Assembly (NCBI RefSeq): GCF_028583425.1
Contig: NC_072790.1
Span: 212,638,897 to 212,702,896, forward strand
Source of the DNA: Eublepharis macularius
Lineage: Eukaryota; Chordata; Lepidosauria; Squamata; Eublepharidae
DNA length: 64,000 bases
Direction: 5' to 3'
The position numbers and the translations under genes are program-made. The notes beneath the pieces are model-generated. The model was not told the origin of the DNA and made no database searches. It saw only the letters and a program-made list of their open reading frames with translations. Below, in pieces: positions 22,803-52,800 of this stretch (position 1 is its first letter; every line of letters starts with the position of its first letter).

Positions 22803-22867
22803 TTAGGAGCTTTGTTGCTCCCTAGACCTGTTTTTTGAATTTCTGCTTTCTGGTTTAGTTTCCACAT
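22803..22867 (-). CDS. CCDC88A: CCDC88A alternative terminal exon (short, mammalian-type C terminus)
   Basis: A 65-nt exon on the minus strand after a TTCTTCTGCAG acceptor. It completes the codon left by the donor at 27889 (A + AT = Asn) and then reads [20 protein letters not shown] and TAA. From memory, human Girdin ends [21 protein letters not shown], so the match covers the split codon, length and stop. It is far too short to be listed by an ORF scan. The intron 27889-22868 is 5.0 kb. The expected transcript uses 28379-27890 as its penultimate exon. Confidence 0.93.
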
Positions 22868-25800
22868 CTGCAGAAGAAAAGCATGTCATGTTATTTGTTT
22901 AGCAGGGAAAAAAACAAGATGTTTTCACATAAAAACATATAATGCACCAGAGATAGAAGGCATACAAAAATAAAGGATTGGGAATAAGAAGGGAAAGTAG
23001 GAATGCAAACCAATTGCTCTATGGGGTTATTTTGTTATTTTTTTCTTTGCATTATAGGTACCCCTCACCTCCAGAGTTATGCTTAGAATTTATCACTAAA
23101 CAAATTTTGTTCAAAAGTGAAAAAAGAGGGAAATATATGCACTATGCCTAATTACTTCAGTCAAGGTTGTGCAATTGATGTATTCACCTCAGTAACTAAG
23201 CCTGTAAAGCAGAAAACTATCCCTTTCATGCAAGAAAATGAAACATGCAAAACCAAATTATCTTAAGCTACTTACTCAGAAAACTAATGCTTCATGTAAG
23301 CCTTCCCTTGCAAGCAAAACAGTTATTCCAGTTCATAGCAGAAGAATTAACTCAGTTTCCCATGCTTCTCTTCAGAAGGTGGCCCTATATTTAACTCTGA
23401 CTTCATGCAACTAAATAGGAATGTGCACTAAATGGGTCTATGTAAAGATTCACCTATGGTATTACTTCACCACCCACTTTGTAGCTTAAACCAGCATTAC
23501 TAAATTAGTACCAACCCTTATTTGGAAAATTTGAAAAGTGGTATGGTAAATGTAGGATGATATGAGATAGATGAGTGATTAAGCAATCACACAACTTCAG
23601 TGTGCAAAAAGGCTAAGAGTAGCAGACAATGCAGATGTCTGCTATGCTAGCATCTTTGTACATCAGTTAGTCCCATGAATTTGCTCTTAAGTAATTATTT
23701 CTAAGACCAAAATATGCTAGAAGAACTGCAGATATATGGAGGAAGATACTGGCAATCTGTTATGTGAAAAAGTGGTATCAGCAACAGTTCCAAGAAATAA
23801 TGCAAATGTCAAACAAAAGGGACAAATCAGTCTTTGATGTGGTTGTTTAACTGGTGCTCATCAGCATTAATCTTCAATAGAAAAATGTATATCATAATGG
23901 TTTACACAAAACACAATAGTGGGCATACAGTTAGATGAAAAATTTTGATACTAAACCTTATTTCCTCCAATATTACATAGATTATAGAATCCACCTTCTT
24001 TTACATAATTTTATAAGCTGTCTAGGTTAATTCCCCTAAAATGAATGGCAGATCATTTAGAATGGAGTGTAGAGCACTCAAAACATTACAAAAAACATGC
24101 TGCAGCTATGTGGAAGTGTGAAATTTTGCTGATCATTTGTAGTGTCACATGCACTGTTCAATAAAAACTTATTGATATTCACGTAGCCGCATTCCCCACA
24201 GTAAATTCAACAGCAATAGAGGTGGCCTCTGCTAAGTGGAATTTAAAAAAAATGTATGCACATATTTTGTCTTTTTATTGGATAACAGTTTTGTTTCTTT
24301 AAATTTTCCAGCCAGAAATACTGGGTATCATTGTATGTAATTGCACGCAAAGATGATGACTATGCTAACATAAGACTTGCATATTCTAAATGCTCTCTGA
24401 CTCAATAGGAGCTATACTAGAAGTTTGTGTATTTTTCCTTAATTAACTCAGCAAAATAATGAGGTAGATCCTCCAACTCCTTTCCTCTGTGTTGACTTTT
24501 CCATTCACAGAAGACTACTGCCCCATTCAGATGTCATAACACCATAGCTTGGGTTGAATCCAAATCAGCTTTTTCACTCGATCTCAGCTGATTCCCCTCC
24601 TTATTAGAGTCCCCATCTGTATGTCTTTTGTGTATTCAGGGGTCACATAATTCCCTGCACAGCTTGCGGGAGCGGGGGGGGGGGGCGGTGTTGAATGGGA
24701 CCTCTCCCTTTCTCATCATCAGAAAATTTGATTGGATCCAACCCCTTGTTTATCATGCAGACTCACATATGGAATGCGATTGAAAGCCTCTTGATTTGGG
24801 AAACCAGGAAATGCCTTTGCTGTGATGTTGGTATGCAAATATCAGTGCAAACTGAAGGTTATTTCCTATCCATAAACAGGGATTATAAATATGTGTTTGT
24901 GTCGAGAATCCTGGTTTGTAGGGAGGAATAAAAAATCCTGTTTGCCCAGGGGTCTGCATTTGGATACAGCAAATGGGAGTTAGCTTTAAACCGCACATGA
25001 TAGGGAGGAGGAGGAGGGAGGGAGCATGCAAGCATAGCAAACAAGCTGTTTGTGACTGACACAAACAGAGGTTTATTCTGACATCTGAATGTGATAAAGA
25101 AATCTTCTGTGAATGAAAGAAATCTTTTGAATGGAAAATTCCTCGCTTGAATCTTAGAATCTGATCCATAACTAGGAAATGAAAAGCTATAAATTAACAT
25201 TTATGGTACTTTTCATCAATTGTGTAGCCCTATATTGTGGGAAGTAGTAACGGTAACAAGACAGGAAAGTTGTTTTATAATTGTGATGAACGCTTTCTCG
25301 GATTGATTCTTCTCAAAGCTCTCTGAAATCTTTCCATATACCCAATCAAAAATCCAATTCAACATGGGCCGATTTAAACAACATGCCCCTACTGGAGTAA
25401 ATGGGATTAAACTGGTTTATATAAAGCCCTTGATTTTAACTGCTGCAGTCAGTTCGTTAGTCTCCTTATACTTTAAACAGAGGACAGGAAAAGAAAATCT
25501 TTTTATTCAGACTAGTTCTTTGTCCACCAGATTGTCCAGAAGTGACCAAAACAACAGAGCTGAAGGATTTCTTTCTGCAAACATTTGAAATTTTCCCTCA
25601 TATAGGTTTTTCTTGTATTTCAAATTTTAAGCACTGATAGAAGTTTCTAGAAAACAAAAATGGCAAGCGAGTTCTGTGTACAAGGGGAATTTCTGGTTTT
25701 AAATCATGGCCCCCTTATACAACAGCAAACCATTTCTAAAAATGAGATTTTCAAAAGCATTTTCAAAAGCATGCTGTTACTCAAAAGCAAATGCCTAAAA

Positions 25801-28800
25801 TAGTTTTTTTTAAAATCCTAGCCAGTATTTTTTGCATAAGTAATTGCTGATATTTAACAGACTCATTCAAGTGCGATTTTAAACACTCGTATTTTAAAAG
25901 ATTTTCAGGTGCTCATATATTAAAAAAATTCAGTAATGATGATATTCATATGAGGTGCTCATATTTTAAAAGATTTTCAGTAACGACGGTATCCAGCTCA
26001 AATACACTACTTTATACTCTTAAGGATCTCCACTAGTTTCACTTATCTGGTGGTTATTAGAACTTGTCTTTCTTGAACAGCAGTCCTACTATGCTGTATG
26101 ACATACCATTTTAGAAAACATGGATACTGTGAAAAGCAAACTGCGATATAGCATTTTTGTTTCATTTTTAAATCAGCTATTACATCCTTAACAGAAAAAT
26201 AATACCACTTTTCCATTTTATTCTTTATTTTAACACACTGTTAATATTCAGAGAAACCTTTATAATAAAAATTAAGATAAAATTCTGGAGACAAGACAGT
26301 ACGTAACCACTTAAGTACATCAAGCATGGTAAGGAAAAGCTTGTGAAAGGTAAAAAGATAAAGCTGGTCAGTCTTTCCAATGCAACTTCTACATTTAATT
26401 ATGTAGCTTTAACCAAAAATAAATAAATCACCATTTAGGTTTTCCGACATTAATGTTTTATTAGTATGAACAGTAGTTCATATTTATTGTGCAAATTATA
26501 AGCCCAGAATTATTTTGCCTATGATTTATTTCATGAATGGAATTTGCATATGGCATAAATTGAAAGCTAGAGATGCAAAGCACGGTTTGCATTTGTTCAG
26601 TATTATGTGCAGGAAAAAGAAAATACATTTTCATTTAAAGGCCCAATCCAAAAGGAATTAGTCATGACTAAGACTGCAACCTAGCTGCACTTGCTCAAAA
26701 ATAAGCTCCATGAGCAAAGATTACTTTTGAGTAATGAGCATAAAACTGGGCTGGAAGTCATTAAGCAACAAGACAAGCTTTGAAATCAGACATACTGCAG
26801 AACCATGCATATTTACTCAGAAGTAGACTCCATTTTATTAAGTGGGCCTTACTCCAGGTAAGCGTGCACAAGTTTGCAACCTTAATCACAAGTAATTGTT
26901 GCTGGATTGGGACCACAATGAATAATTCACATGATACTGGTGCATCTGAAAGAAAAACAGAAGAAATTACCATTGCTGAAAGTTACCTGGTATTTTGTGC
27001 TATTTCTGGCACAGCAGCATGCAACTGGTTTAGCATGCATCCAGCAATAAACAGAAAAATAAATTATTTGTAACAAATAGAAAATAAAGAATACAGACTG
27101 TTAGCTTGCGTTAACACTTTTAAAGGCATGCAGAAAATACACAATGCAGTTAATGTTTCGTGCAAGCTTTGGCATGGTTACAATTTTTCATTCAGCCACA
27201 TGCTAAGAAAAAAAGAATGAGTTTATTTTTCTTCAGTCAGAGGAAAAACATGTACACTTATAGCTACTGCCCTAGCTAGTAAATTATTTAAATATGACCT
27301 AAACATTAAACATTTGTTTTCAACATCCCCATTGTACGGGAAAAGATACTAATATTATTTCTATTTAATCACACACAACCATATTCATACCAAACAGTTT
27401 GGCTATCTTCAGAAACTGGTAATGAGGATTTACTCTCACTTGCGTTTACATGTGCAAGGACAGTAAATTCACTGCTATTCTGTGTCACTTCTAAGTTACT
27501 ATCATCAAAATTCTGATTCTCAGAAGATAGTCTGTGATCCTTCTGTGGAGTTTTCACTGATGACTCAGAAGTTTTACTGGTTGCTTTTGATACAGGTCTT
27601 TGAGGCAATCCACTAACACTGCTGACTAATTCAGTGTTAAGCGACAAAAATGGCCCAGATAAACAGACTGCAGAGAATTTCTCTGCACTGCTCACTGATG
27701 GGCCTACTTTATCACTGTACATGTTACTACAAGAAAGTGTTTTATCAGTCCTTGAATTCTGCTTTTCCGGTTTATGAGCAGAATAATCTAGCATAGCTAT
27801 AGTACCTAAATCATTTTCTGACAGGGTAACGGTAGTATAAGGTTTATAATGAAAAATATGAGAAGACTGCTGCGGAGGATCATACTCACTAGAAGCTGAT
27901 GGGACACTTCTGTCAACTGTAGGTGGAGATGGGTCGATTGATATTGGTTGTCTAGGGTCTTTAGATAAAAAGTCATGGATACTTGTCCTCCGAGTAGTTC
28001 CTTCAGCTGTAGAAATCACACTGCTTGCACGAGGTAAAGTAGCATAAGGGTTACAATCTTTTGATTGTCGTTGTGATAGGCTCATTTGTGAGTTTTCCTT
28101 AACAGACCTGGTCTTGCTTTTAGTCCCTGCTGTAAGTGTTTTTGAAGAGTTCAAGAAACTGGGATCTTCCATTCTATGTGTACTAGACCTTGCAATGTGG
28201 TCTTGCTTAGCTAACTTTCCATCGGAGAATTCAGATGTGTTTTTCACACTCTGTGATCTAGCAATACCACTGCTGACTCCTGACTGTTTCCTTAGTTTTT
28301 CTCTTCCTGCTAATTCAGCATTTTCTGAGAAAATTTTCATTACTTCATCCAGAAGATTCTCTTGGCTTGAGGACTTGATCTGTAAAACACACCCCAAACA
28401 ATTTATTCTATGCCGAGTTTTCAAAATGCAAATAGAAATTTGGAAAGCTGCTATAGAATAAACATGTAAAACTATCAATGCTGTTTCATCTTATGGAAAT
28501 CTTTAATCCTTATTTTGCTATCCAACTCTAGTAGTATGTATATATTATGCATACACATTCATGGAATACCCACAACTGATGTTATTCCACTTAAATGTAC
28601 TACTGTATAGACTGGGGGGAGAGGGGAGGGAGGGGGGAGAGATTCCTCCCTTGAAAAATTCATACTGCTCTATTTTAAATTAAGGATGGGCTTTCCCCCC
28701 AAAATCATAATGTTTAATTGGATTGCCATTTCACTTTCAAATCGCTCATATATGCTTCTCGCTAACTAGTTAAAAACTGAACATCATGTACAAAAGAGCC

Positions 28801-31800
28801 TATTCCTGAAATTATTGTGAGCTTCTGCATTTGAAGTCCGTGGAAAAAATCCAAGATGCAAGAACAAGACTGTCTTTTCCTTTTCTCCAAAGCAAGACTC
28901 CTTTAATAGCCACCTGAATGTTTCACATGCATATCTTGACTAAGGAACCACAGCATTTGCGGAAACACCAACCAGTTCCAACAGTTGTCAGTAAACTGAG
29001 AATATTATTGTCTTAGCTTCAAAAAGCTTGAAAAGTACAAGGCCATAAATTAATATAAACTACTAACATTATGCTCCTGTCTATCTTGTTTCATAGAGCT
29101 GTTTTGTATTAAAAGTAAATGAGTGGAAATTATGGCCTTGGATTAAAAAAGACCACAGAATCTAGTTTTATTATTTAGGTACATATTCAATTTATTCAAT
29201 TAACATAAGCATAGAAACGCTGTTATTTACCAAGAAAAAAAACAGGGTTTCTCACCTGTAACTGTCGATCGTCGAGTATCTTCTGTGCAGACACACATTG
29301 GGGACTGCGCAGGCGCAGGCCAGCCACGGAAAGATTTGCCTAGCTTTTAGAGACGTCAAAGGGGATGCTCGGCGAAGCCGCGCATGCGCGGTGGTGTTCC
29401 CGCCAAAACGCGGCCACCAGCTTGAGCGTCCCCGGCATTCCCTCAGTTCACCTGAGCCGCCGGAGAGCCAAACACATATAGAAAACAGCACTCACAGCGG
29501 GGCAGGCGGGAGGGAATGTGTGTCTGCACAGAAGATACTCGACGATCAACAGTTACAGGTGAGAAAAAACAGGGTTTCTCACCTGTAACTGTTGATCGTC
29601 GAGTCTCTTCTGTGCAGACACACATTTGGCCTGCGCCTGCGCAGTCCCAATGTAGGGCTGCACAGAAGGACGACGACGATCCCTGTTTATCGTTGTCGTA
29701 CTTCTGTGCAGCCCCACATTGGGAGAATAGCGAGCATCTCACCAATGGGGGCGGGTGTGAGTGTTCAGTGGAATAAGGAATGCAGGACAGCCGTGCCAAC
29801 AGCTGATTCACATCGTGCATTCACGTCCACAGAGTAATGTCTGATGAAGGTGTCTGGTGTAGACCAAGTTGCAGCCTGGCAGATGTCCTGAAGAGGGTCT
29901 CCACGGAGGAAGGCAGCAGAAGCAGCTTGTGCTCTAGTCAAATGGGCAGTCAATGAAAAAGGGCACTGCACTCCAGCCTGATGGTAACACAGTTTAATCG
30001 TGGACACAATCCATCGAGAGATAGATTGGGCAGAAGCAGGAAGACCTCTGCAAGAACCAGAGTAACACACGAACAGTGCAGGAGACTTCCTGATGCACGT
30101 GGTGCGATGTAAATAAAACAATAAAGCACGTTTAACATCCAAAGTGTGTAGTGACTGTTCCCCCGGGGAAGAGGGTGTTGGGGAAAAGGAGGGGAAAACC
30201 ACCTTTTGTTGTAAATGAAACTTCGAAACCACCTTTGGTCGGAATTCCATGCTGGTGTGGAGGACAACCTTTTCTGGGAAAAACTGCAGAAACGGGGGGT
30301 CAATGCGAAGGGCAGTAAGTTCCCCCACCCGTCTGGAGGACGTAACTGCCACCAAAAAGGCCACCTTCTGAGTGAGCAGTGGCAAGGGACAGGTTGACAG
30401 AGGCTCAAAGGGCTTGAGCATCAATTGGGAAAGGACTAGGGACAAGCTCCACTGAGGAACCGGTGGAACCCTAGGAGGGAAAGTCTTAAACAGACCTTTC
30501 AGAAATTGTTTAGAGAGCCAGTGGGCAAAAACAGTCCTCCCATCAATCTGCTCATGAAAGGCAGAAATCGCAGCCATATGCACCTTAATGCTGCTAAAGG
30601 TAAGACCTTGCGAATGTAGAGTCAAAAGGTAATCCCGTACCAGGGGCAGTGGACAGGTAAAGGGGGAGACCCCTTTAGGGGCCAACCAAAGGGAAAACCG
30701 TGACCACTTCCTATGATAGGACACCCTGGTGGACCGTTTGCGGGCACTGAGGATGATCCGCAGAACCCCAGAAGACAGGCCTACTCCAGGGGGAGCAGGA
30801 GCCAGGCAGCTAGGTTTAGGATTTCCACATTGTGGTGCCGGATCCCATCCCTGACTAGCAGGTCTGGAACAGGCGGCAGAGGCAGGCATCATCCCTGAGA
30901 AAGGGAGAGCAACAGGAGAAACCACTCTTGACGGGGCCAGCGTGGGGCCACCAGGATACAGTGGGTCTTGAAGGCCCTGACCCTGCAAAGAACTTTGAGC
31001 AGGAGAGGGAAGGGCGGGAAGGCGTAAAAGAACCCTGGGGTCCAGGGAATTTGGAAGGCGTCTCCCAAGGAGCGAGGGTCTATCCCAGCCCAGGAACAGA
31101 ACAAGGGTGCTTTCTTGTTCTCGGCCATCGCAAACAGATCGACTCGAGGCCACCCCCACTTGCGGAAAACCGGCTGAAGACAGGCACGGTTGAGGGACCA
31201 TTCGTGTTGTGGTAGGAACACTCTGCTGAGCGTGTCTGCTGAGGTGTTGAGTTCCCCGGCAATGTGAATGGCCCGTGGGAGGACGTTGTTGGATATGGCC
31301 CAGGTCCAGAGAGCCGTGGCTTCTGCGCAGAGCTTGAGTGACATCTTTCCTCCCTGCTTGTTGATATAATAACAGGCTGTCGTGTTGTCCGAAAGGACTT
31401 GAACCCGTTTGTTGTGGAGCGCATTTGCAAAAGAAGCAAGGGAGTAACGGATCGCTCTAAGCTCTAGCACATTAATATGCAAATTAGCCTCAGCTGGGGA
31501 CCAAGTGTCTTGGGCCGTCAAAGTGCCACAATGTCCTCCCCAGCCCAGAGTAGAGGCGTCAGTTGAGACAGTGACGTCAGCCAGGAAGGTGTCAAAAGGA
31601 CAACCCGCAGACAAATTGTCTGAGACCGTCCACCAGATCAAGGACCGCAGTACCACCCTTGGCATGGAGAACCGTTGGTGTTGACTCATGGTCAAGGGGT
31701 CGAATTTGCGAACAAACAATTTTGCAAGGGTCTCATGCGTAACCGTGCAAAAAAGACCACACCAACAGAGGAGGCCATAAGGCCCAGTAAGGTCTGGATC

Positions 31801-34800
31801 AGGAGCGCCGTTTGAAAACGGTCAGAAATGAAGTGTTGGGCTAGAGAATCCAGCCTGCGGAGCCTATCAGGGGGCAAAAACGCTCTCCCCAGGGGAGAGT
31901 CAAAATGGACGCCAATGAAGCGTATGGTCTTTACAGGAGACAGAATAGATTTTGCATAATTCACCATAAGCCCCAACCTGGAAAGTAACGACAAGGTGAG
32001 GGTGAGGTGACCTTGGAGGGAGTCTGCAGAGGGCCCCATCAGGAGCCAATCGTCCAAGTAGGGGTAGATGACACAACCCATGGACCTCAGATACGCCACC
32101 ACAGCGGCCCTACACTTTGTGAACACACGGGGGGCCGAAGCCAGCCCGAAAGGCAAAACCATGTACTTGTAGGCAGTACCCCCACAGAGAAAACGGAGGT
32201 ACTTCCTATGCCCCTCGTAGATGGGGATGTGGAAGTAGGCATCCTTCAGGTCTATAATGGCTAGCCAGACATCCACTTCCAAGAGCTCTATGACCTTAGC
32301 CAAGGTCAGCATCCGAAATTTTTGGACCCTGAGATAGGCTGTTAAGACCCCGAAGGTCCAATATGGGTCGGGACCCCCCGTCCTTCTTGTCCACAAGGAA
32401 ATACCTGGAGTAAAACCCCCGAGGGGACACAGACAGATTAACCACACGGATAGCACCCTTATTCAGCAACTCCAAAACATTATTTTTCAGAACATCATCA
32501 GAACAGGGGGAGGAACGGGGAGGGTGTGAAAGAGGAGGGGTGTCAGTGAACAACAACTTGTAACCACGGGCCACGATTGTAAGGACCCAACAATCAGTAG
32601 TAACCAGCTGCCAAACGGGCAGAAAAGGCCGGAGCCTGTCCAGGAAGGGAGCACGGTGAACAGTGCTCGGTGGCGACAACTGGGGAGCTTCCAGGTCTAG
32701 TCAGAAGACGGACTTCTGCCCAGAAGTTGAGGCCTTGGGTGACGAAGGCTGCTGCTTCCCCCTGGAACGGCCAGAATGCCTAGACGTGTGCCTCTGCGGG
32801 GCTGAGTAGGAGCGCTGACCATCGGGCTGACCATAAGAGAATCGCCCCTGACGCTGGTGGTATGGCTGGTACGGGGTCTGGTAAGGTTGAAACCGCCCGG
32901 AACGGTACCTTGGAGCATTCGGAGGATGAGACACAACGACCCCCAGAGACTTTGCCGTCTGATGGTTTTTCCGCATCTGGGAGAGAGACTCATCGGTCTT
33001 TTCCGAGAAGAGGAGGGCACCTTCAAAGGGGAAATCCTCCAACTTGGCCCGCTTTTCTAGGGGCAAGGCCGTCGACCTCAGCCAGGCGTGACGGCGCAGC
33101 ACCACCGAAGATGCCATAGACCGAGCCAAGGAGTCAGCCGCATCCTTTCCTGCGGTCATCTGTTGCTTGGCAAGCCTGATCGCCTCTGCCTGCAGAGTCT
33201 TGACCAAGGGGCGCTGCTCCTCTGGAAGGTCTGCAAGATGGGAAGACAGACGCTTCCAGAGGAACAGGTTGTAGGAGCCCATGATTGCCTGGAAGTTGGC
33301 AATGCGGAACCCCAGAGAAGCAGAGGAGTAGAGCTTCTGTCTGATGTTGTCAAGCTTCCTACCCTCACGGTCAGCAGGTGCGGAGGACGAGCCGTGTCGG
33401 AACCGGGCATGGACCTCCTCGGCAACCAGGGAAGACGGCTTTGGATGGGTAAACAGGAAGGGACAGTCTTCCTGCTTCAGCCGATAGTACCGGTCCACCT
33501 TCTGTGCGGTCGCAGGAACTGACGCAGGAGTCTGCCAAAGCGCGTGGGCATTATCCACGAAGTCTTCCACCAGGCGGAAAGCCACCGGGGAATCGGAGTA
33601 TAAGGCCTCCAAGAGCTTGCTCTTTGGCTTGTTGGTTGTCGCCGAGACATCCAGCTCAAGGGCCACCGCCATGCGAGACATCTGCTCAGCGAACATCCGG
33701 TAGTCATCATTCGGGGAAGAGGAACGGACATCTCCTACCATTTCGTCTGGAGATGGATCGGACGCCAGGATGGAGGAATATTCAGAAGGCGATGCGAGGC
33801 CCTCCTCATCTTCCAAACTGGAAAACTCCGGGGGAGCAGGCACCGAAACGGTGGTGGCTGGCCTGGTCGGAACCGATGGACGGGTTCCATACGCGGCAGA
33901 AGGCTGTGGCACTCCCTGAGAGGTAGATGGAAAGGGAGGCGGATAGGCAGGCATGGCAGGCTGGGTCGGAACCAGGCCGCTCGGAGCTGACTGCTGGAAA
34001 AGGGGCGCCGACGCCTGTAGCCAGGAAACAAAATCCTGCCAAGTGGTCACGTTACCTATGCCCGGAACCGACTGCCAGGGCGGTACAGCAGGTGGAATCG
34101 GCAACGGCCACTGTCCTGGAATGGAGCGGTGAGGGTCCGAGGGCGGAACCGAGGACCAGGGCAGAGGTGGAACCGACGGGTCGGATGGAAACGGAGCAGG
34201 CAAGGAGCGCTCCAACTGTGCGTACGGATCCGGTAGGTCCGGCATGGGGACATAGTCGTCTTGCACCACAGGCGGTGGCGTGCGAGGAGGGGATGGAGTG
34301 TGAAGGAACTCCTCAATACTTCCCTCAGCCACAACAGACACGGGGGATTTTGGAAGATCCCAGCCAACGGTGGTCGCAGACGGCACCCGCTTCTTGCCCT
34401 TCGACTTCAACTTGGCTCCGAAGTAGCCCTAGTGGTCGAAGATCGGGAGGCAGATCGCTTCTTCCCCGGAATTGAGGACTCACCGGAAGCAGGCTTGGGG
34501 GTCGACAGCTTCGGAACGGGCCGCTCCATCGGATCTGAGGATGGGGTCAGATCCGAGGACTTCTGCGATGGGGACGGAGCCGAGGAACGGGGCTTCTCGC
34601 CAGACTGGCTTCCCGATGACTTGGGGGGGAGAAGGTTGGCCTCCCACAGGAAAGCCCTTAACCTGGCCTTCCTGTCGCTCCTCGCCTTCAGAGTGAAGGA
34701 CATGCAGGTAGTGCAACGCTCCACGACGTGACCCTCGCTCAGACAGATGAGATACAAGTCATGGCCGTCGGATTGGGTCGTCTTTGTCCCGCATCGCTGG

Positions 34801-37800
34801 CACTTTTTAAACAGCGACGTCTGAGGCATCTTAATGCCAGATATCTCCCAAAAGTTGGTAAAAAGGAAAGATATCTCACGAAAAAAGTAGAGAGAACTCG
34901 CTGAAGAGAATGCTGATCGAATAGATAACGCTAGGAAGAACCTTTCTCGATGGCGGCGAAAAAGGAACTGAGGGAATGCCGGGGATGCTCGAGCTGGTGG
35001 CCGCGTTTTGGCGGGAACACCACCACGCATGTGCAGCTTCGCCGAGCGTCCCCTTTGACATCTCTAAAAGCTAGGCAAATCTTTCCGCGGCTGGCCAGCG
35101 CCTGTGCAGTCCCCAATATGGGGCTGCACAGAAGTACAACGACGATATTACAATTTTTTTTAAAAGTAGAATGCTGACAATAACCTGTGCCCTATTTTCA
35201 ACTGTCAGAGACATGCATGAATATTAAATTCTTAAACTAAGATCACAGACTTCACCTGTATAAAAAAGGTCTCTGAAGAAAGACTTTTTAATCTCTAATA
35301 ACTTGCAGGCACTAACATATACCCACACCCAACAGTTGTCCTGACTTATAAATAGAAGAGGTAAAGTTCCAGCTCAGTTCATGATAGAAAACACATCTGG
35401 CAAAATACTCACTGATACTCACTTAGGTCACATTTCCTCTTACCTCTGTTGAAATAACCTTATTGCTTTCTTCCAAAAACTGCTGCAGACTAACCACTTC
35501 ACTCCCAGGAGAGTTGGTCTTAATTCTCCACGTTCCTTGTCTGTCCAGTGTTTCTGACATTTTGTGATGGAGTATGGGACTAGACCTGGCGTGGCTTTTC
35601 AAATACTGGACAGGACTGCTGCTGCTGCTGGACCATGCTTCGTGATCATGAAGCAGGCTAAATTCTCCGCTGCTGTGGCTTTGCGGCCTGCTTTGATTAT
35701 TAACTGCACCTGCTTTGGGGGGTAAATAGTATTGACAACTTTGTTACATTAGGTAAATAAATAAAAACACAACAAGCACATTCTGAATGAGATACAAGAC
35801 ATCTCAGATATTGTCTGGATGATTTTTTCAATGCATCAAACAGTCAGTTGTAGGGATGTGCGTTTCGGCATTCAGAATGCCGAAAGAATGCCGAAACAAA
35901 AGTGTTTCGGCTTCTTTCAGGGAATGCCGAAACGTTTCGGGGAATCCCGAAACGTTTCGGGTAGCCGAAAGAAAAAAGCCGAAACGTTTCGGGATTCTTT
36001 CGTCTTTCATTCGGCTTTTCAATGGGAAAATGCCTCCGTCTTCCCGGACGTCTGGGGGAGGCATCTTCCCACCGAATAAGCCCAAAATTGGTGGGGACCT
36101 TCCTCTAACCCTTCTCTAACAACCACCCAAGTTTCAGACAGATTGGACTTTGGGGGGCCATGTTATGGCCCCCCAAAGCAGGTCCCCCCATCCTCCCATA
36201 AAGGAGCATCTTCTTCATTATTTCCTATGGGGAAAAAATGAAGAAGCAGGCTTCCTTTGCCAGGGGTGGCATTTTGCATGCAAAATGCCCCCTTACCCTC
36301 AGGGGCCCTTCTCCCACCCCTCCTCCCACCCCCCACCAAGGCTCAGCCTGCTCCCACTTGGGGGGGCCATTTCATGGCCTCCCCAAGTAGGTGCTCTAAT
36401 CTCTACCACTGACAGCTGGGGGAGGCTTGTGTTGCCAGGGGTGGCATTTTGCATGCAAAATGCCCCCCAACCCTCTGGGGCCCTTCTCCCACCCCTCCTC
36501 CCACCCCCCACCAAGGCTCAGCCTGCTCCCACTTGGGGGGGGCCATTTCATGGCCTCCCCAAGTAGGTCCTCTCAGCCCCTAAATTCCACCCCTTACAGC
36601 TCCACACAAACCCAATTCCCCCCAGCTGCCACACACAGACCCAAATCCCCACATTAGCCCCTCACAGACCCAAATCCACCCCCACCTGCCCCACACCCAT
36701 AACCCCAGGAACAGGCTGGCAAAGGCCAGCCCTCTCCCTTTGTTCCCTATGCTGGGAACTTCTAAACTCTCTTTCCCTGGGCAATTCTGCACAGCCCAGG
36801 GGTGCCACAATGCTGGGCACACTTCTGAGTGCCAGCTGGTCCCTGTGAAAGAGCACCTGAACCACAGACACCCTCCCTCAAATTCCCCCACCACCTACAG
36901 AGATGGCTGGCCAGCCAGCCCCATTGTTCCCTATGATGGGAACCAACTGCACAACAAAGAATAAAACAAGAACAACACAAAATAAAGTTTTTTAAAAATT
37001 ATTTTCTCCCTTCCAAAGTACAAGTAGGCAAAGCATTATGACACATAACACCAGCAGTCCCCCACACAGAAAAATAACACAACTCACTTAACATCAGAGA
37101 ATCACAAAGCACGATTCCTGTCAAAAACACTTTATTTCTTGAACAGCTTTAGGCTACACAGCAGGGGGGGAACACCAAAGGGCATGGCAGCAGTATCTTA
37201 CACAAAAATAACACAACTCACTTAACATCAGAGAATCACAAAAGCACAATTCCTGTCAAAAACACTTTATTTCTTGAACAGCTTTAGGCTACACAGCAGG
37301 GGGGGAACACCAAAGGGCATGGAAGCAGTATCTTACACAAAAATAACACAACTCACTTAACATCAGAGAATCACAAAAACACAATTCCTGGCAAAAACAC
37401 TTTATTTCTTGAACAGCTTTAGGCTACACAGCAGGGGGGGAACACCAAAGGGCATGGAAGCAGTATCTTACACAAAAATAACACAACTCACTTAACATCA
37501 GAGAATCACAAAAACACAATTCCTGGCAAAAACACTTTATTTCTTGAACAGCTTTAGGTTACACAGTAGGAGGGCACAAAAGGGCATGATAGCAATGTAC
37601 TACAAAAAATAATACAACCCACTTCACCGTTTTTGACAGCAATTGTGTTTGTGTGATTCTCTGATGTGAAGTGAGTTGTGTTATTTTTGTGTAGTACACT
37701 GCTTTCCTGCTCTGTGGTGCCTTCCTACTGTGTAACCTAAAGCAGTTACAGAAATAAAGTGCTTTTGACAGCAATTTTTTGGGGTGATTCTTTAATGTGA

Positions 37801-40800: not shown

Positions 40801-43800
40801 TATGTGTGGGAGGGGAAGGTAGAGGTTCTTTGCACTTGTACTGTTTCCTTGACTGTAATCTCCCCTCACCCTGCCACTCCAAAGCAGTCCAGCCCTCAGT
40901 TCTCTGCTGCCTTTTCACCCTTCCTGAACCTCAACTCCACTGCTTCTCAACTCCACTCAACTCCACTGCTTGTAGATCCTCTTGCTTTACTTTCTTCATC
41001 CCCTCTACATCACAGATTTTGCTGATGATCACTATTCACAGACTTCACTAATCCCATTCTATTGAATGCCTCTTGAAGAAAATTAAAAGCTATGCTCTTT
41101 GTTTCAGTTACTGGGTTAGATTTTCCATTCAGAATACAGAACTTTCCTGTCTCCCCTGTCCCACTGCAGCTTGCTGGTCTCCACAGAATGCTGCTCCTAG
41201 GGGATAAAGTATCGTGTGGAATGGGTGAGGGGTCTGCAGCTAGCAGGGGGAATCAGTGGAAATTGCCAATCCAACTGAGTTTCTTGAACCATATTTTGAA
41301 CACAGAAAAAAAACTATCACCCTGATAAACTTCTTAACTAATAGATTTTCATGCAGTGCCAGACTGTATCCTCCAATTCCTGCTGCAACATCATGGTTGT
41401 AATGGTAAAATGCTCTATGCAGAAAAAGCAGAGTTGCATGTGTGAATATATGAAGATTTGCAATATTCAGTAATCTCTTTCTTAATGGATTTATTCTGAC
41501 TCAGAGGCCACCCTACATCAAAGCCTCATTTAAAAAGAAAAAAATGGGTCTAGATGATCAAAGAACAAAATCCCACATGCTGAGTTGTTTCCCACCCTCC
41601 CCAAACTCATGGAGATGAAGCACATGTGTCAATTTGCCTAGAAGCATACCTTTGACTTCATGGAGTGAGGCATTATTATTGCTATTGCTAGTGGATGTTC
41701 TGCCACTATCAAGGCTGGCTGGTCTGGAAGCTAAATGAAAAAAAATCAGTAGACAGCATGAAGCACATATCCATAGCAGATGGTACTGTGCCTGGTACAT
41801 TCTGATCACAGAATGCTGAGGCAGAAAATCATGCACTACTGGTATTGCACAAGCTGAGCATGCACACTGTTAAAAGTGTGGTTTCTGAGAGGTGGAAAAA
41901 GCAGGAGGAGCAGCAAGGTACAAAAGAATGGGGGGGGGCATGTTTAGAATCAGAACTGGTTTATTGATAGGAAAACAGAATTTCAAAAGGAACAGCCAAC
42001 ATGCAGAAAACTAGTTGTGGTTAAGGCACTTACAACAGATTTGACATGGAACTTTGCACATTGCAGAAATGTCACCAACAGGAAGAGCAAGAGCACCTGC
42101 ACAGTTTATGTTCTGTACTCCTAACCAATATAAGCATAAAGGCAAGGTTAAGAAGCTTTAAAATACTAGACTACTTGAATCAAACTGGATTATATTTATT
42201 TGTAGAAATCCATTTTTAATAAAGATTCTGTTGTAGCTTCAGGTATTTATTTGTATAACTACTTTAAAATTTGATACAGAAAATATTACATTGGATGAAT
42301 TTTGAGGTAGGTTTCTTAAATAAAAAGCTAATTCACAATTGAACTCTAAGATACTCAAGATTACACAGAGAAATTTGGATCCTGTTTAGGTGCACTTCAT
42401 ACTCTATGTTAAGAAAGGAATAAGGATGAAAGAAATGGGAAAGATCCCATACAGTTAGATGAGATGCAAGAACATGCACACTTGCAATGCTGATTATCCC
42501 CTATTTCTGGACAAACTTCAATAGCATTCCTGTATAGGTCTTATGTTTCACACACTATTAAACTGCAAATCTTACCATGAATTCTTGATCCAGTACTAGA
42601 ATCATCGCTAATTCCTTGTGGACTTACATCTTCGAAAGATGTAGCATCTAGATGGAAAACAAAAGAAAACTGCATTGCAAAAAAATAATCTGAATCTATT
42701 ATCCACTAAATGGTATGATACATTTTATGTTTGAATTATAATTATTTCTTCTTAGGTAATCTCATGGTCCCCCCCAAAAGTTTACAAGTATTGAAACTTT
42801 TTCCCCATCCAATTAATCCATAAATCCACAATTCCATTATTCCTGGGGGGTTGGGGGGTGGGGTGGGGCAGGAAAAGCATGTGAAATGAACATGAACAGA
42901 TTCTAACAATGCTACTGTTACCAACACAACCACATCACACTGTGAAAAGGTTCTACCTATACCTTTATTATTAAGCAACTGCTTGGATCTCAAGCCTGCA
43001 GCAGAGTTGACAGTTGCAAAGTTGATGGATGTAGTAGAGAAGGCCATAGATCCCAATTCTTTTCTCCTTTTACCCGCAGATATATCATCAGGACCCTCCA
43101 GATGCTCAGAACTACCTGTCCATTGTCCTCCTGCTAGGACCATGGACTGCATCAGGTCATTCATGGCTGGGATGCAAATGAAAGCAAATGAATCAGCATG
43201 GTTCAATGTTTTTTAAATTTTTATTTTGCACTGTTAAATGCCTTGCATTATCTAAGCATCAAAGCATATCGAAAGCTACAGTCACAAGTTATTATATGTT
43301 ACAGCATGCAATTGGCTGAATGAATGAAAAGTGTTAAAAAGCCAAAGCCTTCTTGTAATTGCTTTTTATTAGCCACAACCGCCATGCTTGTGCTGGAAAT
43401 CTATACAGCAGATAAATATATATGTTAGAAGCTCTGATATGTTTTGCAATGACAAAATGGAATGAACAGGGTAAGATGAGCAGAAATGCTATACAAAAAT
43501 CAGTATTGGCAATGATTGAAAGTCCTTGTTCAGAGCAGGCTTCTGCAGGAATAGTCTGTGTTGCACAACACTAGAAAAAGGATCTGAAATAAATGCATCC
43601 TGCAACAGCTATTTTTACTATGCTACAAACACTGCAGTGCCCTCCTCCAACATTTAAAAGAATACTTCATTGAAGAAGAAATGACAAAAATATTTGTTTT
43701 CCTCCCCTTTGACTTGGAATGATAGAACAGGCACTGATTTTGAACCAAAGATTGTATAACTATATCATTTTCAATCTTTGTAAAATCAGTTACTGAACAT

Positions 43801-46800
43801 GGAGTTCAATGTTTGGAAAACATAGTGCATTGCATTGTTGTATATGTGCAATTATGTGTGTAATACATATGTTCAAATACATGTAATTTCTATACATTGA
43901 ACATAAATATGTGAATTAATTGCATGTGTGTAAATAGATGTAGGCATATGAATGCTTACATATTATTTAGACACCCCAAGTTGTGGGCATTGAGTATCTA
44001 GGTGTTCAGAAACATTGCTTCAGCTCCTTGTATTATAGCAGGACTTGCACTGTATAAAACAGGGAAAAAGTAGCGCAGTCCAGGGAAAGGTTAGTGACAT
44101 TAGTAATGGAAGCCAGTGTAGCCATTTAAAAAGAAGCTGAACTGTCATAAAATCTTACACATGGAGCGACGGTAGAAGGCCTTCATTTTGTCTTTTTCCT
44201 TCGGTCTGTTCCTCAAAAAGGGCAGCCTTTTCAGTGCAACCACTTTTATGTCATAGCATAAGGAAAAACGGAAACGGGAAGATGAAAGAAAAAGGGGAGA
44301 AGAACAGATGGAAGTTAAATGTTGAAACTAAGGACAGAAATGAATGCTTGAGTTTCCACTAGGTGTACTTAACTAAAAGCTATTAACCTTATGCTGCTGA
44401 ATGACAATGGAATATGAAGCTTCCACAATGAAACTTTAATATAACCCAAGAAATTCTGGAAATTATGTGTGAGGAAGATAAGGAGCTTTCAGAGTTAAAA
44501 ACTGCTAACTGCCTGGAAAACAAACAAGAAGGAAAAATACCAAAAACAGATTTTGTGCATGAGAATCAGAACTCAGCAAAACCAGGCTTTCGGAGGGGGA
44601 AAAACCTCTTGGGGTGGAAATAAGCATACTCGTTTAATAAAACATCTTTTAATAAGTAGTATTTTAATGTTTTGCTACCAGTGCAGTTCTGTATTTTTAC
44701 ACCGAGGCTCATTTTAAAATTCATTAGCTTATTTCATTCAATCGCAATCAAGAGAGTAGCAGCAAATGTTTTAATGCAATATCTGAAAAAGTTCTTGCTG
44801 GTCAAGGAATTTGTTGAAAGGAGTGCAGAATGCACTAATTATTTAACAGAGTTCTACTTAGGAGTTCCTGGTTAGGTGGCAACTGTACTGTTATTCTGGA
44901 GGGGGGCAGAGGTATCGAACAGAAAAATGACCAAACAAAGAGAAGAGAAATAATGACAGTGCAAAAAGTTTTACATAAATCATTAAAATTAAAATTCTGC
45001 AAAGATAATTTTAATTTATGTTTCACAGAAAAAGCTTATCTTGTGCTAAGATTGGAGTCATAAGCAACAGGATCTTCTCCTTAGTAGCAGGTGTTTGCAA
45101 TTCAATGTGGCATTATTACCAATCTGAGCACAAAGAATGCAAGTCATGGGTGTGAAACTGAATGCCTCCTCTGAAAGAAAGACTGTTAGTCACTGATCTT
45201 TTACTTACATATGATCTGGCCCTCTTGGCTTGAGGCCTTGATGCATAAGGAGAAGGGGCTTATGTCTTTACCCTCCTGCACCATTTTTCTGACCTGAAAC
45301 AGCCTCAGGGAGGCCACTATAAGCCCATGTGGAAAAGCCTGCAGTTAGCTCAGTGGTCAGTTCCTGAATCACCTAGTTCTTGGTGGCTGTGGGATTCTTG
45401 CACATATTGTCGGAAATGTCAGCCCCCTAGACTTAACTGAGGGGCTCAGTTGCAGGCCGCGGGGGATGGAGGGCAGGATGGCATGGTGGCCAACATAGTG
45501 GAAGGTGGGCGTGGGCTCCCTGTGATCAGTGGGGCAGCCCTCATTGCCTAGATTCAAACTGCAGCCAGCCAATCAGAGCAGGCTGACAGTCTCCTCTCAG
45601 ATCCGCTGACAGCTCTTGTAAAGAGAGGAGGAGGCCCCTGCCCCTAAGCACTTGGCTCGTGGCCGGCATCCCACCCAGGCCTCCATTTTGTCACAAGTTT
45701 GGAGTGGAACAGGCGGTTGGGGCATTGGGCACCAATCCGTTTGGGGGGGAACAGGGCCAGTGAGTTCATTTCCCTATTATGGGGATCCCCTTAAGGGGTC
45801 TGGGGAGTGCAGCATGGCAGGTGCATGGCCAGCTTGGGGGCTCTCAGGTCTGCCTCACTCCCAGGTGGCAGAAGATCTGCACAAGGGTACACACCCACGT
45901 GGTATCACCCAAATTGTCATCCCATGGTTTCCCTCCCTCCTCAGCTCGGGTCTGAGGGGGTGTGGCGGTCATCAGTTGGCAGGCGGGTCAGCCGATGCTA
46001 GGATCTGTGCCCTATGTGGCACCAATGCTCTGAGCTGTAATTCAATCAAGTTGTGGCCTCTATTAACTCCATCATAGTTGTCTGTGTATTTTGTCGCCTT
46101 GCCCCCGAAGCTCACCTCCTCCCCTTGACAGTGGGCTGCAATAGGTGAACTCCATCTAATCTAGCAAGGATCTGAGTTCTTCAGCAAGATTTCATATTCA
46201 CAGAAAAGCAAAACTATAAATCATGTAAATAAACAGATAAGTATCAACATTGAGAGGACTGCCTTCAACTCCCCCTCTATACTGTATAAGGTTGAAATGT
46301 CAGCAAGCCATACCTAAATGCCTATGTATCTATGGAAAAAAATGAGAGGGGTGATGACTAACAATGTTTGATAGAATGCATATGTTCACAGATGGCACAC
46401 ACATGGCAAGAAGGTTGGCTTGACCCCAGCACTTAAGGGAATGCTGATTTCCACCAATCCCCCCACTCTTCACTGCAGACTTGAGAGTCCAGTGACCTTA
46501 GTATGTACAGGCATCAAGCATGTACAGGCACTAGTATAAAGATAATCATCTCCTCTTAAGGAAGTTAAAGACTTTTGAGTTTTAACTGTATGGTTGGATA
46601 CTGGCTGCTGAAACATAAACTCTCTTTCTCCATGGCCATCAATTATTTATAAACCCAGTACAAACACATTTAAAAATGCATCTCCATTTTCAAACATTCA
46701 TACAAACTGTACAAGATCCATTGCCAAGGCAGAAAATATTTATTTGGAAATGATCTAAGATACAAATACGTTCTCCCTGTCATAATTTTTGGGAAATATT

Positions 46801-49800
46801 TTACTTTGATGAAAATAACTCTCTAGCAAGATTATTTTGAGCAAGAACCAAGTCTGCTATAGAATGAAATCAGTTCAGAAACATCAACAAATCAGCCTGG
46901 CACTGTGCAATTGCACCACATGCTCACATAACTTGGTCTCAGTCACATTCTCGGCCTTCTCCCCTTGTGTACTATGATTTCCTCCCTCCCTGTTTGCTGG
47001 CTTACCACGAACACATGAAGCTGCTTTATCCTGAATCAGACCATTGGTCCAGCAAGGTCAGTATTGTGTACTCAGACTGGCAGAAGCTCTCCACGGTCTT
47101 AGGAAGAAGTCTTTTACATCACCTACTACCTGATCTTTTTAACTGGAAATGCTAGGGATTGAGCCTGGGACCTTTTGCATGCCAAGCACCTGCTCCATTG
47201 TTGAGCACAGCCCCTCCCCAGGGCTCCATAGTTTTCAATTATATGCACAACCCATCATATGCCCAGTTTTAATATCTTGTCAAATCATGGTTAGTCAGCA
47301 GAAAAATAACACAAGGAGAGAGGACACTTTAGCTCTTGAAAGGAAGCGGGGAGGATGGGAGCCTGAGGCTTGTTTACATAGCTTCAAGGTATGGGTTGGA
47401 TCCAGACTAGCATTTCCATGGGTGTAAGGGTTTGCGCTCGTGGAGTCTACTCTCCTGCTTCTCTCTGTCTTGTGGCAACCCAAAATGCCCTCTAAAATCC
47501 TGTTCCTGAACCCTTTCCATAGAAACAGGATAGCAGGCTGTTGCAGGAGAGGGAGCTTGGGAAAGTCACGCTGTGCAGGGAGAAATCTCTGTCTCTGAAG
47601 AAATGGTAGTCTGGATCAAAATCTTTGGCTTGATTTTACATCTGAATGAGTCTCTTTTTATCTATCACCAGTTAAACAGGATATAAATATTCTGCCCTTA
47701 TTTTCTCTCCCCACCAATACTCCCTTATACCAGCTGCCTCCAGCATTAGAAAGTGGCTATAGAATACAATCGGACCACGGTGTGAATGCTGAATTAACCA
47801 ATTAACACCATGCTATAAGCTGGCAATTAACAATACTGAGTTTACTTTTAACAGTACTTAAAAAATAAAACAAGGCGTGTACAGGCAGAAATACAATCAA
47901 ACAGAAGTCATTCTCAATGTACAGGAAAACAGGGTTAACATACCTGTAACTTATGTTCATCGAGTTCTTCTGTGCTGACACACATGGGGCTGCTCAGGCG
48001 CAGGCCAGCCGCCGGAAGATTTTTTCATCGCTTTCCTCAGCTCCAAAGGGGCCGTTGGGTGCACGCCTCAGCGACCGTTTCCCGCCCAAACGGTCATGTG
48101 TCCAACGGCGACCAACGGCCCCTTCCCTCAGTTCATCCTTGCCGCCACTATCCCACACACAAATTTAATTCTCCTTGTAATAATTCTTAATTAACACTTT
48201 TTTTTTTTGTAGTAGGAGTTCACAGCGGGGCAGGAGGGAGGGATGTGTGTCAGCACAGAAGAACTTGATGAACATAAGTTACAGGTATGTTAACCCTGTT
48301 TTCATCTTCGTTCTTCTGTGCCTCCACACATGGGAGAGTACCAAGCTTCACACAATAAGGAAGGTGGGGTGAAATCCAACTCAATTTTATTATGTACCAA
48401 AAATATTAACACAAGATAAATAACTTGTTCAAGAAACATTAGAGTTGTTCAATAAACTATATACGTATATACATATACAGAGTTTCAGTCTCCATCATTG
48501 GAGCAAAACATTCAAGTGTACTGTTATGCAAACAAGGAGTGAAGGACAGCCTTGGCCACAGCAACATCCTGCTCTGCATTAACATCCATAGCATAATGTT
48601 TTACAAACGTGTCAGCAGACGACCACGTAGCCGCTTTGCAGATGGTGACAAGCGGCACACCCTTGACGAGCGCTGACGAGCGCTGCCTGAGAGCGTGTGG
48701 AGTGGGCACTGACCCCCAGTGGACAATCCACCCCAGCCAGAGCATATGCCTTAGAAATGGCCAACACTATCCATCGGGACACTGTTTGGGACGATGCCCT
48801 ATGACCCTTGTCCTTACTTCCAAAGCAGACAAAAAGATGGGGACTGCTACGGAAGTCCTTTGTCCTGTCCAAATAAAAGGCTAAGGCCCTCCTCAAATCT
48901 AAAGTGTGAAGGGCCTTTTCCCCTTTAGAAGATGCATTCGGAAAGAACACAGGCAACGTGATCTCCTGTGACAGGTGGAAGGTGGACACCACCTTGGGCA
49001 GAAACTTAAGGCACGGCCGCAGGACCACCCTATTCTTATGGAAAAGAAGAAATGGGGGGTCAGCCCTGAGTGCTGCTAACTCGCTAACCCTTCTAGCAGA
49101 TGTTACAGCCACCAGAAACGCTACTTTGTAAGGCAGTAAGTCCAAAGGGCATGTAGCTAACGGTTCGAAGGGAGGCAGCATCAACCTAGATAGTACGAGG
49201 GAGAGAGACCATTGAGGCACTGGTGGTGACACAGGCGGGTAAAGATTAAACATCCCCTTTAAAAACTGACGAGATTTATGGTGTGAGAACACCGTACAAC
49301 CGTCAACATGCTCGTGAAATGCGGAAATAGCCACAAGGTGTACCTTTAGGGAGGTAACCCTAAGCCCTTGGTCTTTCAAATGACATAAATAGTCAAAGAC
49401 GGACCCTAAGGGGCTACTAACAGGCACCAGATTCTTTGAAATTGCCCAAGCCTCAAACCTAAGCCACTTAGCTTTGTAAGCCTGTCTAGTGGAGAGTTTC
49501 CTTGCATTTAGAATGACTTTCTCCACTTGCTCAGAATAAGTTACAGGCAGGGTAGAATCCGCCAGACAGACAGGTGCAACTTCTTGGGCTCGTGGTGGAA
49601 CAAGCTCCCGTTCAGCAGATCCTGCCGGGGAGGCAGACTCACATACGTCCGATTGGACATCTGCAACAGTTTGGGGAACCACACTTGTCTCGGCCAGAAG
49701 GGTGCTACCAGAATGCAATCTGCATTGTCGTTCTCTATTTTGCACAACACCCTTGGTATTAGCGGGAATGGTGGAAACATATAGTGCAACCTGTGGGTCC

Positions 49801-52800
49801 ACGTAAATTGGAAGGCATCCCCAATAGAGAGGAGGTCGCTTCCTGCCCTTGAACAAAATATCTGGGCCTTGGTGTTTGCTGACATTGCAAACACATCTAT
49901 GCTCGGTTGGCCCCACATTTGGAAGATCAGCCCAATGTACTTTGCGTTTAGTTCCCACTTGTGGTCCAACACGTGCACTCTGCTCAGGGCATCTGCCCGA
50001 GCATTGTCTGATCCCGCTACGTGTATTGCCCGAAGCATCACACCATTCTGGATCGCCCATTGCCAAACGAGCGTGGCCTCCCTGCAGAGAATCATAGATG
50101 CTGTGCCCCCTTGCTGGTTTAGGTAATACATGGCAGTCGTGTTGGCCGTCTGCACCAACACCTGACGGTTTTGTAGCAGTGCTGCAAGGGACACAAGTGC
50201 AAAACAAATAGCTCTTAGTTCAAGAACGTTAATATGCAGGTTTCTTTCCCTTTCTGACCATACATCCTGTACGCACACAGCACCACAACAGGCACCCCAT
50301 CCCTGCAGGGACGCATCAGTGGTCACTGTAACCTCAGGATGCAGATAGCCAAACAGGGTCCCTTTAAACAAGTTCTCATCTGACAGCCACCAGTTAAGGG
50401 AGGATAGAATGACCCTAGGTATGGATAACTTGAGAGATGGAGGGTGGCGTATAGCATCATACCTCCGCACAAACCAATTTTGGAGCGGACGCATATGCAG
50501 TCTCGTAAAGGGTACTACTGAGGTAGCAGCTGCCATGTGGCCCATTAAGCATTGTATCATGTGGACAGATTGGAAACGATTTCTCTTAAACATGGAAACC
50601 AATCCCTTAAGAGACTTAGTTCTTTCCTGCGGAAGCAGTGCTTTACCCTCAACGGAGTCTAATACTGCACCAATGTAAGAGACCTTATGGCTAGATACCA
50701 GCTTTGACTTATCCAAATTTACCAGCAGACCCAAACGTTTGCATGTGCTCAGCACTAACTCTACAGCGTGCACAAGCCCAGCCTCAGAGTCTGCCACGAT
50801 GAGCCAATCATCGAGGTAAGGAAAGATGGTACAGCCTTTCTCTCGAAGGAAAGACACCACAGGAGCCACACACTTGGTAAATACCCGTGGCGCCGTGGAT
50901 AGGCCGAAGGGAAGCACCCTATAACGGAACACCCTTCGTTTGTAAACGAAGCCCAGAAATTTTCTGTGCTCCTCTAGTATTCCAACATGGAAATAGGCGT
51001 CCTTCAAATCAAGGACAGCAAACCGATTCCCTTTCTTTAGCAAGGAAATTACAGCAGACAGTGTGACCATCTTAAACTTCATCACTTTCAGAAAGGCATT
51101 AAGACCCCTTAAATCTAGAATGGGATGTAAACCCCCATCCTTTTTGGGGACTAGAAAGAAACGAGAAAAGAAGCCTTTCTTAGACTCCTCGTATGCCACC
51201 TCCTCCACAGCACCCTTGGCCAAGAGAGATATGATCTCATCCTCTAGCTCAGCCATGGTATTATTCACAGCCCTTAACGGTGAGATACACCTAGGCAGTT
51301 CAGTGAATTCCAGCCCGTATCCATTGTTCACAATTGTTAAGACCCATGAGTCAGATGTTATTGGCTCCCATTCAAATAGGAAAGGCTTCAGCCTGTCCGA
51401 AAAAGTCAGGGCTGTGACTGGTTCATCCCGTCAGAATTGCCTCCCTGCTCCTTGCAGATCTTTTTGCTGAGCAGGAGGCTGAGATGGACGGGGCTTGAAA
51501 GGCCTACGCCTCCTGGGTTGCTGCGCGGGAGTGTAATGGCGCTGAGAAGCAGGGTACTGCTGGAAGTAGGGACGCTGTTGGTATCTCCCATGGTACTGGT
51601 ACGGGTTGTATCTCGTGGGGTACTGTAGCTTGAAAGCAGACCTGTCTGCCGAGGTCACTCCCAACGACCGAGCCGTCTGCCTATCCTCTTTCTTCTTTTT
51701 TAGCGCCTCATCAGTGGTGCTGGAAAACAGAGAATCCCCTTCAAATGGCAGATTCTCAATTTTGGTCTTCACCTCTTGTGAGAGAGCTGTTGACCGGAGC
51801 CAAGAGTGCCGTCTCAGGATCACCGCTGATGACATACCACGGGCAGCAGTATCAGCTGCATGGCTCCCCGCATTCATCTGCTGCTTTGAAAGGCGAATGG
51901 CTTCGTTCTGCAGCAGGGACACCACCGCCTTCTTATCTGCAGGCAAGTCAGCGACATAAGGCATCAGCTTCTCCCACAGGTAGAGCAGATAGCCAGCCAT
52001 GATGGTTTGGTAGTTGGCTATACGGAGGGCCAGGGCCGAGATGGAGTATTGGCGTCTGCCCAGGGCGTCCATCTTCTTCCCCTCCTTGTCTGGCGGGACG
52101 GAAGACGAACCTGACCGACGGTGCTGGATCTCCTCAGCAATCAGGGATGAAGGTGGAGGATGCTTGACAAGCGATTGCCATGTACCTTGCTTGATTTTGT
52201 ACATCTGCTCAATCCGCTTCGATGTAGCTGGCAGATCTGAAGGCACCTTCCACACCTTCTCCACTATCTCCTCTACGCCCTCCAACATGGGGAAACCCAC
52301 CGTAGCTGGGTTGCCACCATAGATGCGACACAGGAGCTTGTCCTTCGTCTTAGGCGTGGCTGAAGAAATATCGATCTCCAACGCCTTTGCCATACGGACC
52401 ATCTGGTCTGCGTAGATACGGAGGTCCTCATAAGGGGAACTCGTACTAGGAGCCACATTGTCATCTGGAGACGGTTCCGACAAGGACTCAGAGCCACATT
52501 CGTAGCCAACAGCAGCCTCCTCCTCATCAGAGGCAGGAACCGACACCTCATCAGCTGGAAACGGTGGAGGTAGCCACTCACGCTGCCTGGATGTTGATGG
52601 CCTCGGATCCCAGGAGTCATACCCCGCAGGAGCCCCACTCCATTGACAGTGGTAAGGAGATGGAATATAGGAGGCCTGCCGGTGCCGGGAAGCCAAGGAA
52701 CGCTTGGAACCGACGCTTTCCACATCAGAGACAGGGCGTTGGCTCCGAGTGGAGGAAGCTGGAGACGCGGAGGAGAGCTCCCTGGGTGTGTGTCGGATCC

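Follow-up and report, generated by a model that had tools for sequence, protein, structure and literature searches.

Two C-terminal ends of CCDC88A (Girdin) in the gecko Eublepharis macularius and the place of its read-through form beside the known isoform GIV-L

The 3' part of CCDC88A, the gene of Girdin (also known as GIV), raises in the gecko Eublepharis macularius the question of whether a single gene may, through the use or non-use of one splice donor, provide two Girdins with and without a C-terminal PDZ ligand, and whether this ligand was lost or became cryptic in mammals, as the initial annotation of the locus had proposed. The stretch analyzed here (hereafter, the window) comprises 64,000 nucleotides of contig NC_072790.1 (positions 212,638,897-212,702,896, assembly GCF_028583425.1), and its minus strand carries the gene. 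The read-through form found in it is, with a probability of about 0.93, GIV-L, i.e., the squamate copy of a two-isoform CCDC88A terminus that is already known.

The two forms part at a donor which lies within an exon of the minus strand, the strand to which all of the coordinates refer unless stated otherwise. The constitutive portion of this exon, the equivalent of human exon 31, is preceded by AG and covers 490 nucleotides (27890-28379), ending at the alternative 5' splice site, a GT at 27888-27889 in the context CTA/GTGAGTATG, where the slash marks the border. This donor, CTA/GTGAGT, splits a codon that becomes A/AT (Asn) when spliced and A/GT (Ser) when unspliced. The removal of the GT...AG intron at 22868-27889 (5,022 nucleotides) joins 27890 to 22867, and the last coding exon of the short form (22803-22867) completes the split codon and leads to the usual Girdin end, SREQQSS. 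Read through, the donor encodes Ser-Glu-Tyr, and the frame meets no stop over 173 codons, the split codon included (27890-27372), until it ends in VWYEYGCV and the stop TGA (27371-27369); the extension specific to the long form, stop included, thus occupies 27369-27889, and the C-terminal PDZ-binding motif WYEYGCV occupies 27372-27392. The donor, the short exon, the split codon, the short end and the open frame had all been placed correctly in the initial annotation, and the frames and splice sites support its proposal that one gene reaches two C termini through a single donor.

An open frame of this kind is not attributable to chance, given that none of 20,000 dinucleotide-preserving shuffles of its 519 nucleotides remains open and that annotated long Girdins match its product over the full length. 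The other five frames of the same 519 nucleotides contain 8-28 stops. Elsewhere in the intron, 3,901 starting points were tried and none of them reaches 173 codons, the longest run being of 146 codons and the mean of 17.

Homology was assessed by a search with the 336-residue read-through frame, from which the best 120 of 2,200 matches were listed, a selection that favors tail-bearing proteins and includes several isoforms per species. The annotated long Girdins with which the read-through product aligns come from geckos and other lizards, from snakes, and from turtles, crocodilians, and birds. The best match is girdin isoform X1 of Heteronotia binoei (82% identity over all 336 residues), and the second species is Sphaerodactylus townsendi (81%), with 98-100% of the frame covered across the list. 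All 120 proteins end in [VI]W[YF]EYGC[VI] (100 in VWYEYGCV, 17 in IWYEYGCV, and three otherwise). The eight best matches are named girdin or CCDC88A, which confirms the gene assignment, and a few labelled hypothetical or CH-domain protein are found lower down.

The long form has a published counterpart in the isoform named GIV-L by Ear et al. (2021, J Biol Chem 296:100493, PMC8042451), the main text of which describes how a BLAST search with the EYGCV motif of invertebrates uncovered predicted vertebrate GIV transcripts. In these transcripts, human exon 31 is not spliced onward, and the intron behind it encodes the motif within some 150 additional residues (PMC8042451). Human GIV-L was detected in some cell lines by reverse transcription polymerase chain reaction, its localization to cell junctions in human cells depends on the PDZ-binding motif, and this motif is also needed for the co-precipitation of Dvl, which occurs with GIV-L and not with GIV; the third PDZ domain of PARD3 binds the same motif, and PDZ binding was shown for the zebrafish protein as well as the human one (PMC8042451). 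The gecko form resembles this isoform in the gene, the unused donor, and the kind of tail and PDZ-binding motif, and differs in the species and in having 173 codons against the approximately 150 extra residues of the human protein as given in that text.

On the question of mammals, a second search was made independently of the tail, with the constitutive human exon alone as the query (query residues 1000-1150 scored), from which the best 120 of 1,742 matches, primate where named, were listed. Among these, 97 end in RSREQQSS, 21 in VWYEYGCI, and two otherwise, and the long and short human forms part at the same residue as the two forms of the window. These 21 tails, together with the human GIV-L of Ear et al., lead to the rejection of a mammalian loss of the motif and contradict the initial annotation, which had the ligand lost or cryptic in mammals; the 21 end in WYEYGCI, where the gecko has WYEYGCV. 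The part of that proposal that stands is that the ligand is of the Daple type and old, as Ear et al. report a PDZ-binding motif in the Girdin of C. elegans and Drosophila and conclude that it was conserved rather than lost, contrary to an earlier hypothesis (main text, PMC8042451). A 2024 review restates this point in its passage on GIV-L and cites work on the tyrosines beside the PDZ-binding motif of Daple (PMC10943482).

One of the two proteins with other endings (P0187) has 1,958 residues and is encoded by a contig of 6,392 bases, running from the Girdin start methionine into the tail through NTELVSNISGLPP. For so short a contig, the likeliest source is a spliced mRNA in which the donor was left unused, which would make it evidence of a GIV-L mRNA, the alternative being a processed copy within a genome. 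The final residues of this protein resemble what we take to be a translated sequencing adapter.

By sequence, the gecko locus has all of the features that define GIV-L, that is, an extension of the exon 31 type which is encoded by CCDC88A and left unspliced from the shared donor, an EYGC[VI] end, and a GEM/GBA motif upstream in the same protein. The latter lies at 35459-35512, in the exon at 35444-35712, and was recognized by comparison with the human motif; its binding of G proteins is putative. The use of the donor at 27889 would join 27890 to 22867 and yield the short Girdin (GIV) without a PDZ ligand. If the donor is left unused, the exon would run on to cleavage and polyadenylation after the AATAAA at 27227, yielding GIV-L with its WYEYGCV end, and the binding of EYGCV to PDZ domains (Dvl, PARD3) could then bring a Girdin equipped with the Galpha-i-binding GEM motif to the cell junctions.

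A number of observations weigh against this interpretation. Change is faster in the tail than in the constitutive exon, with a mean identity to the window of 0.50 vs 0.70 over 60 distinct sauropsid tails, and the annotated long isoforms are mostly computer predictions. The SSEY just past the junction is conserved, and this may be at least partly for the splice site and not for the protein, given that the donor consensus A/GTGAGTAT encodes these residues. The production of the two forms in the gecko itself is a prediction. With regard to function, the main text of Ear et al. reports weaker Galpha-i binding for GIV-L than for GIV and, in a bioluminescence resonance energy transfer assay, no dissociation of the Gi trimer by GIV-L unless Dvl is co-expressed (PMC8042451).

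The 3' end of the long mRNA is a separate matter, on which the rival explanation overlaps with the preferred one and departs from it in the poly(A) step only. A candidate poly(A) signal, the AATAAA at 27222-27227, lies 141 nucleotides past the long stop and is followed by a T-rich stretch; the mRNA of GIV-L probably ends there, in a composite terminal exon for which the donor and an intronic poly(A) site would compete. Under plain intron retention, the long mRNA would contain the whole of the 5 kb intron or much of it and would share the distal poly(A) site with the short form. This alternative is unlikely and seems the poorer choice of the two: a retained 3' tail of 5 kb behind a stop would be unusual, and four further AATAAA follow the first by 26462. 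Its strengths are that an AATAAA at 27227 could arise by chance in AT-rich DNA and that Ear et al. account for the isoform by the absence of the splicing that follows exon 31 (PMC8042451), in a main text in which the stem "polyadenyl" does not occur. Nor was CCDC88A found in the eight listed of the 214 matches of a search of the literature on intronic polyadenylation. The intron-retention or alternative-last-exon event of the initial annotation is kept in its donor-controlled end and refined, tentatively, to a composite terminal exon.

It may also be supposed that the open frame is a relic, that is, an ancestral PDZ ligand which squamates no longer make and which survives by inertia. The greater variability of the tail in relation to the constitutive exon is compatible with this idea. 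The 173-codon frame is nevertheless intact in the window, annotated proteins with the long tail range from geckos, other lizards, and snakes to turtles, birds, and primates, and decay would be expected to break both the last 12 residues of the tail, which retain a mean identity of 0.87 over the same 60 tails, and the internal island of 15 residues discussed below; a relic is therefore very improbable. For comparison, in the constitutive part, the mean identity over this set of 60 is 1.0 for frame residues 121-140 and 0.91 for residues 101-120.

The assignment of the gene to CCDC88C (Daple), for which its nearly identical C terminus might speak, is rejected as having next to no chance, given that the eight best matches are named girdin or CCDC88A and that the tail profile matches that of Daple in the last 13 columns and nowhere else.

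The latter result comes from an hhalign comparison of 66 GIV-L tails with 102 distinct Daple tails, in which only those 13 columns align (probability 97, E 1.2e-10) and no homology is detected beyond the PDZ-binding motif. The Daple tails were collected by a search that scored the 7,988 candidates sharing most words with the query, the last 46 residues of which were left out of the scoring, and the best 120 of 636 matches, mammalian where named, were listed. Of these Daples, 119 end in VWYEYGCV. The gecko Girdin shares the C-terminal WYEYGCV with Daple and differs from it in the remainder of the tail, whereas it shares the EYGCV motif with the Girdins of C. elegans and Drosophila and differs from these in its GEM motif, which they lack according to the main text of Ear et al. 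(PMC8042451). These patterns are compatible with an old PDZ-binding motif common to Girdin and Daple, with divergent spacers before it, in agreement with Ear et al. and the review passage cited above.

The tail, apart from its last 14 residues, varies everywhere but in one block, an island of 17 residues at 27603-27653. The best 15-residue window outside those last residues falls here, with a mean frequency of the commonest residue of 0.918, against 0.626 for the tail minus its last 14 residues, and this value is reached in none of 5,000 permutations of positions (66 sequences including the window, uncorrected for relatedness). The frame residues that do not vary across a 27-row alignment include P243, F244, L245, N248-V252, S256, and P259. 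The NTELV core occurs in 117 of the 120 listed sauropsid Girdins, a list chosen by match to the whole frame, and NTELVS is present in all 21 of the primate long forms, which were not selected for the motif, whereas NTELV is found in none of the 120 listed Daples. It does not occur in the main text of Ear et al. (PMC8042451), and a search of the main texts of the literature returned no paper with NTELVSNISG.

The island has about an even chance of being a second functional linear motif of GIV-L, besides the PDZ ligand, kept from geckos to primates and absent from the Daples examined. As protein sequences were what was compared, selection on the RNA and not on the protein could also account for it. 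The 336-residue frame was modelled with AlphaFold2 from an alignment with 26 sauropsid proteins, and the model has a mean predicted local distance difference test score (pLDDT) of 44 and one helix at residues 6-21; in the two ten-residue blocks that cover the island the score is 39 and 38, with no confident fold. Neither the terminal exon frame nor the exon with the GEM motif matched a Pfam family up to E 1, and a sequence search of solved structures with the terminal frame gave two matches, which, at E 0.41 and 0.5, are attributed to chance.

In all, eight coding exons of the gene were assigned between 61928 and 27890, to which the last exon of the short form is added; all of the introns between them are GT...AG, and the frame is continuous throughout. 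Besides the exon with the GEM motif and that ending at the alternative donor, these are, by frame and splice borders, the exons at 61783-61928 (the most upstream one assigned), 60764-60856, 60371-60585, 42963-43166, 42576-42647, and 41650-41730.

Two further optional exons are intact, with AG/GT borders. That at 44159-44242 encodes VALKRLPFL, found in 64 of the 120 listed sauropsid Girdins and 63 of the 120 listed in the primate search. The other, at 42034-42120, is cysteine-rich, and its CQIC is present in 31 of the 120 listed sauropsid Girdins, including alligator, plover, and rhea, and in none of the 120 of the primate search; it may represent a sauropsid Girdin isoform. A tandem AG acceptor, AAAGCAG, at 35709-35712 (35712/35709) would add or remove one alanine, with KAGAVNN in 39 and KGAVNN in eight of the 120 listed sauropsid Girdins.

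The window also holds traces of mobile elements. Two large intronic stretches, at 29765-35063 and 48524-53892, contain reverse-transcriptase frames (RVT_1). In the former, another frame weakly matches the integrase-like Phage_int_SAM_1, short of the curated cut-off, which suggests DIRS-type tyrosine-recombinase retrotransposons. A chromodomain-type integrase frame (rve, SH3_Tf2-1, Chromo) at 62904-63998, upstream of the assigned exons and running past the end of the window, is presumably a piece of a Ty3/Gypsy-like retrotransposon. On the plus strand, a 345-codon frame at 55481-56518 has no Pfam match at E 0.001 and is reminiscent of Penelope-like GIY-YIG elements. A search of the window against Rfam gave no match at the gathering thresholds.

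Finally, the two-isoform terminus of Girdin is not new, having been published in 2021, and the window is an ordinary squamate copy of the known pair. This squamate genome shows the PDZ ligand of Girdin to be an old and maintained alternative end rather than one that mammals lost, which opens the balance between GIV and GIV-L to study in other amniotes. A concrete target in the search for a partner specific to GIV-L is the conserved island; if it is indeed a motif, GIV-L would gain through it a partner not shared with Daple, and the choice made at a single donor would switch two docking sites at once.

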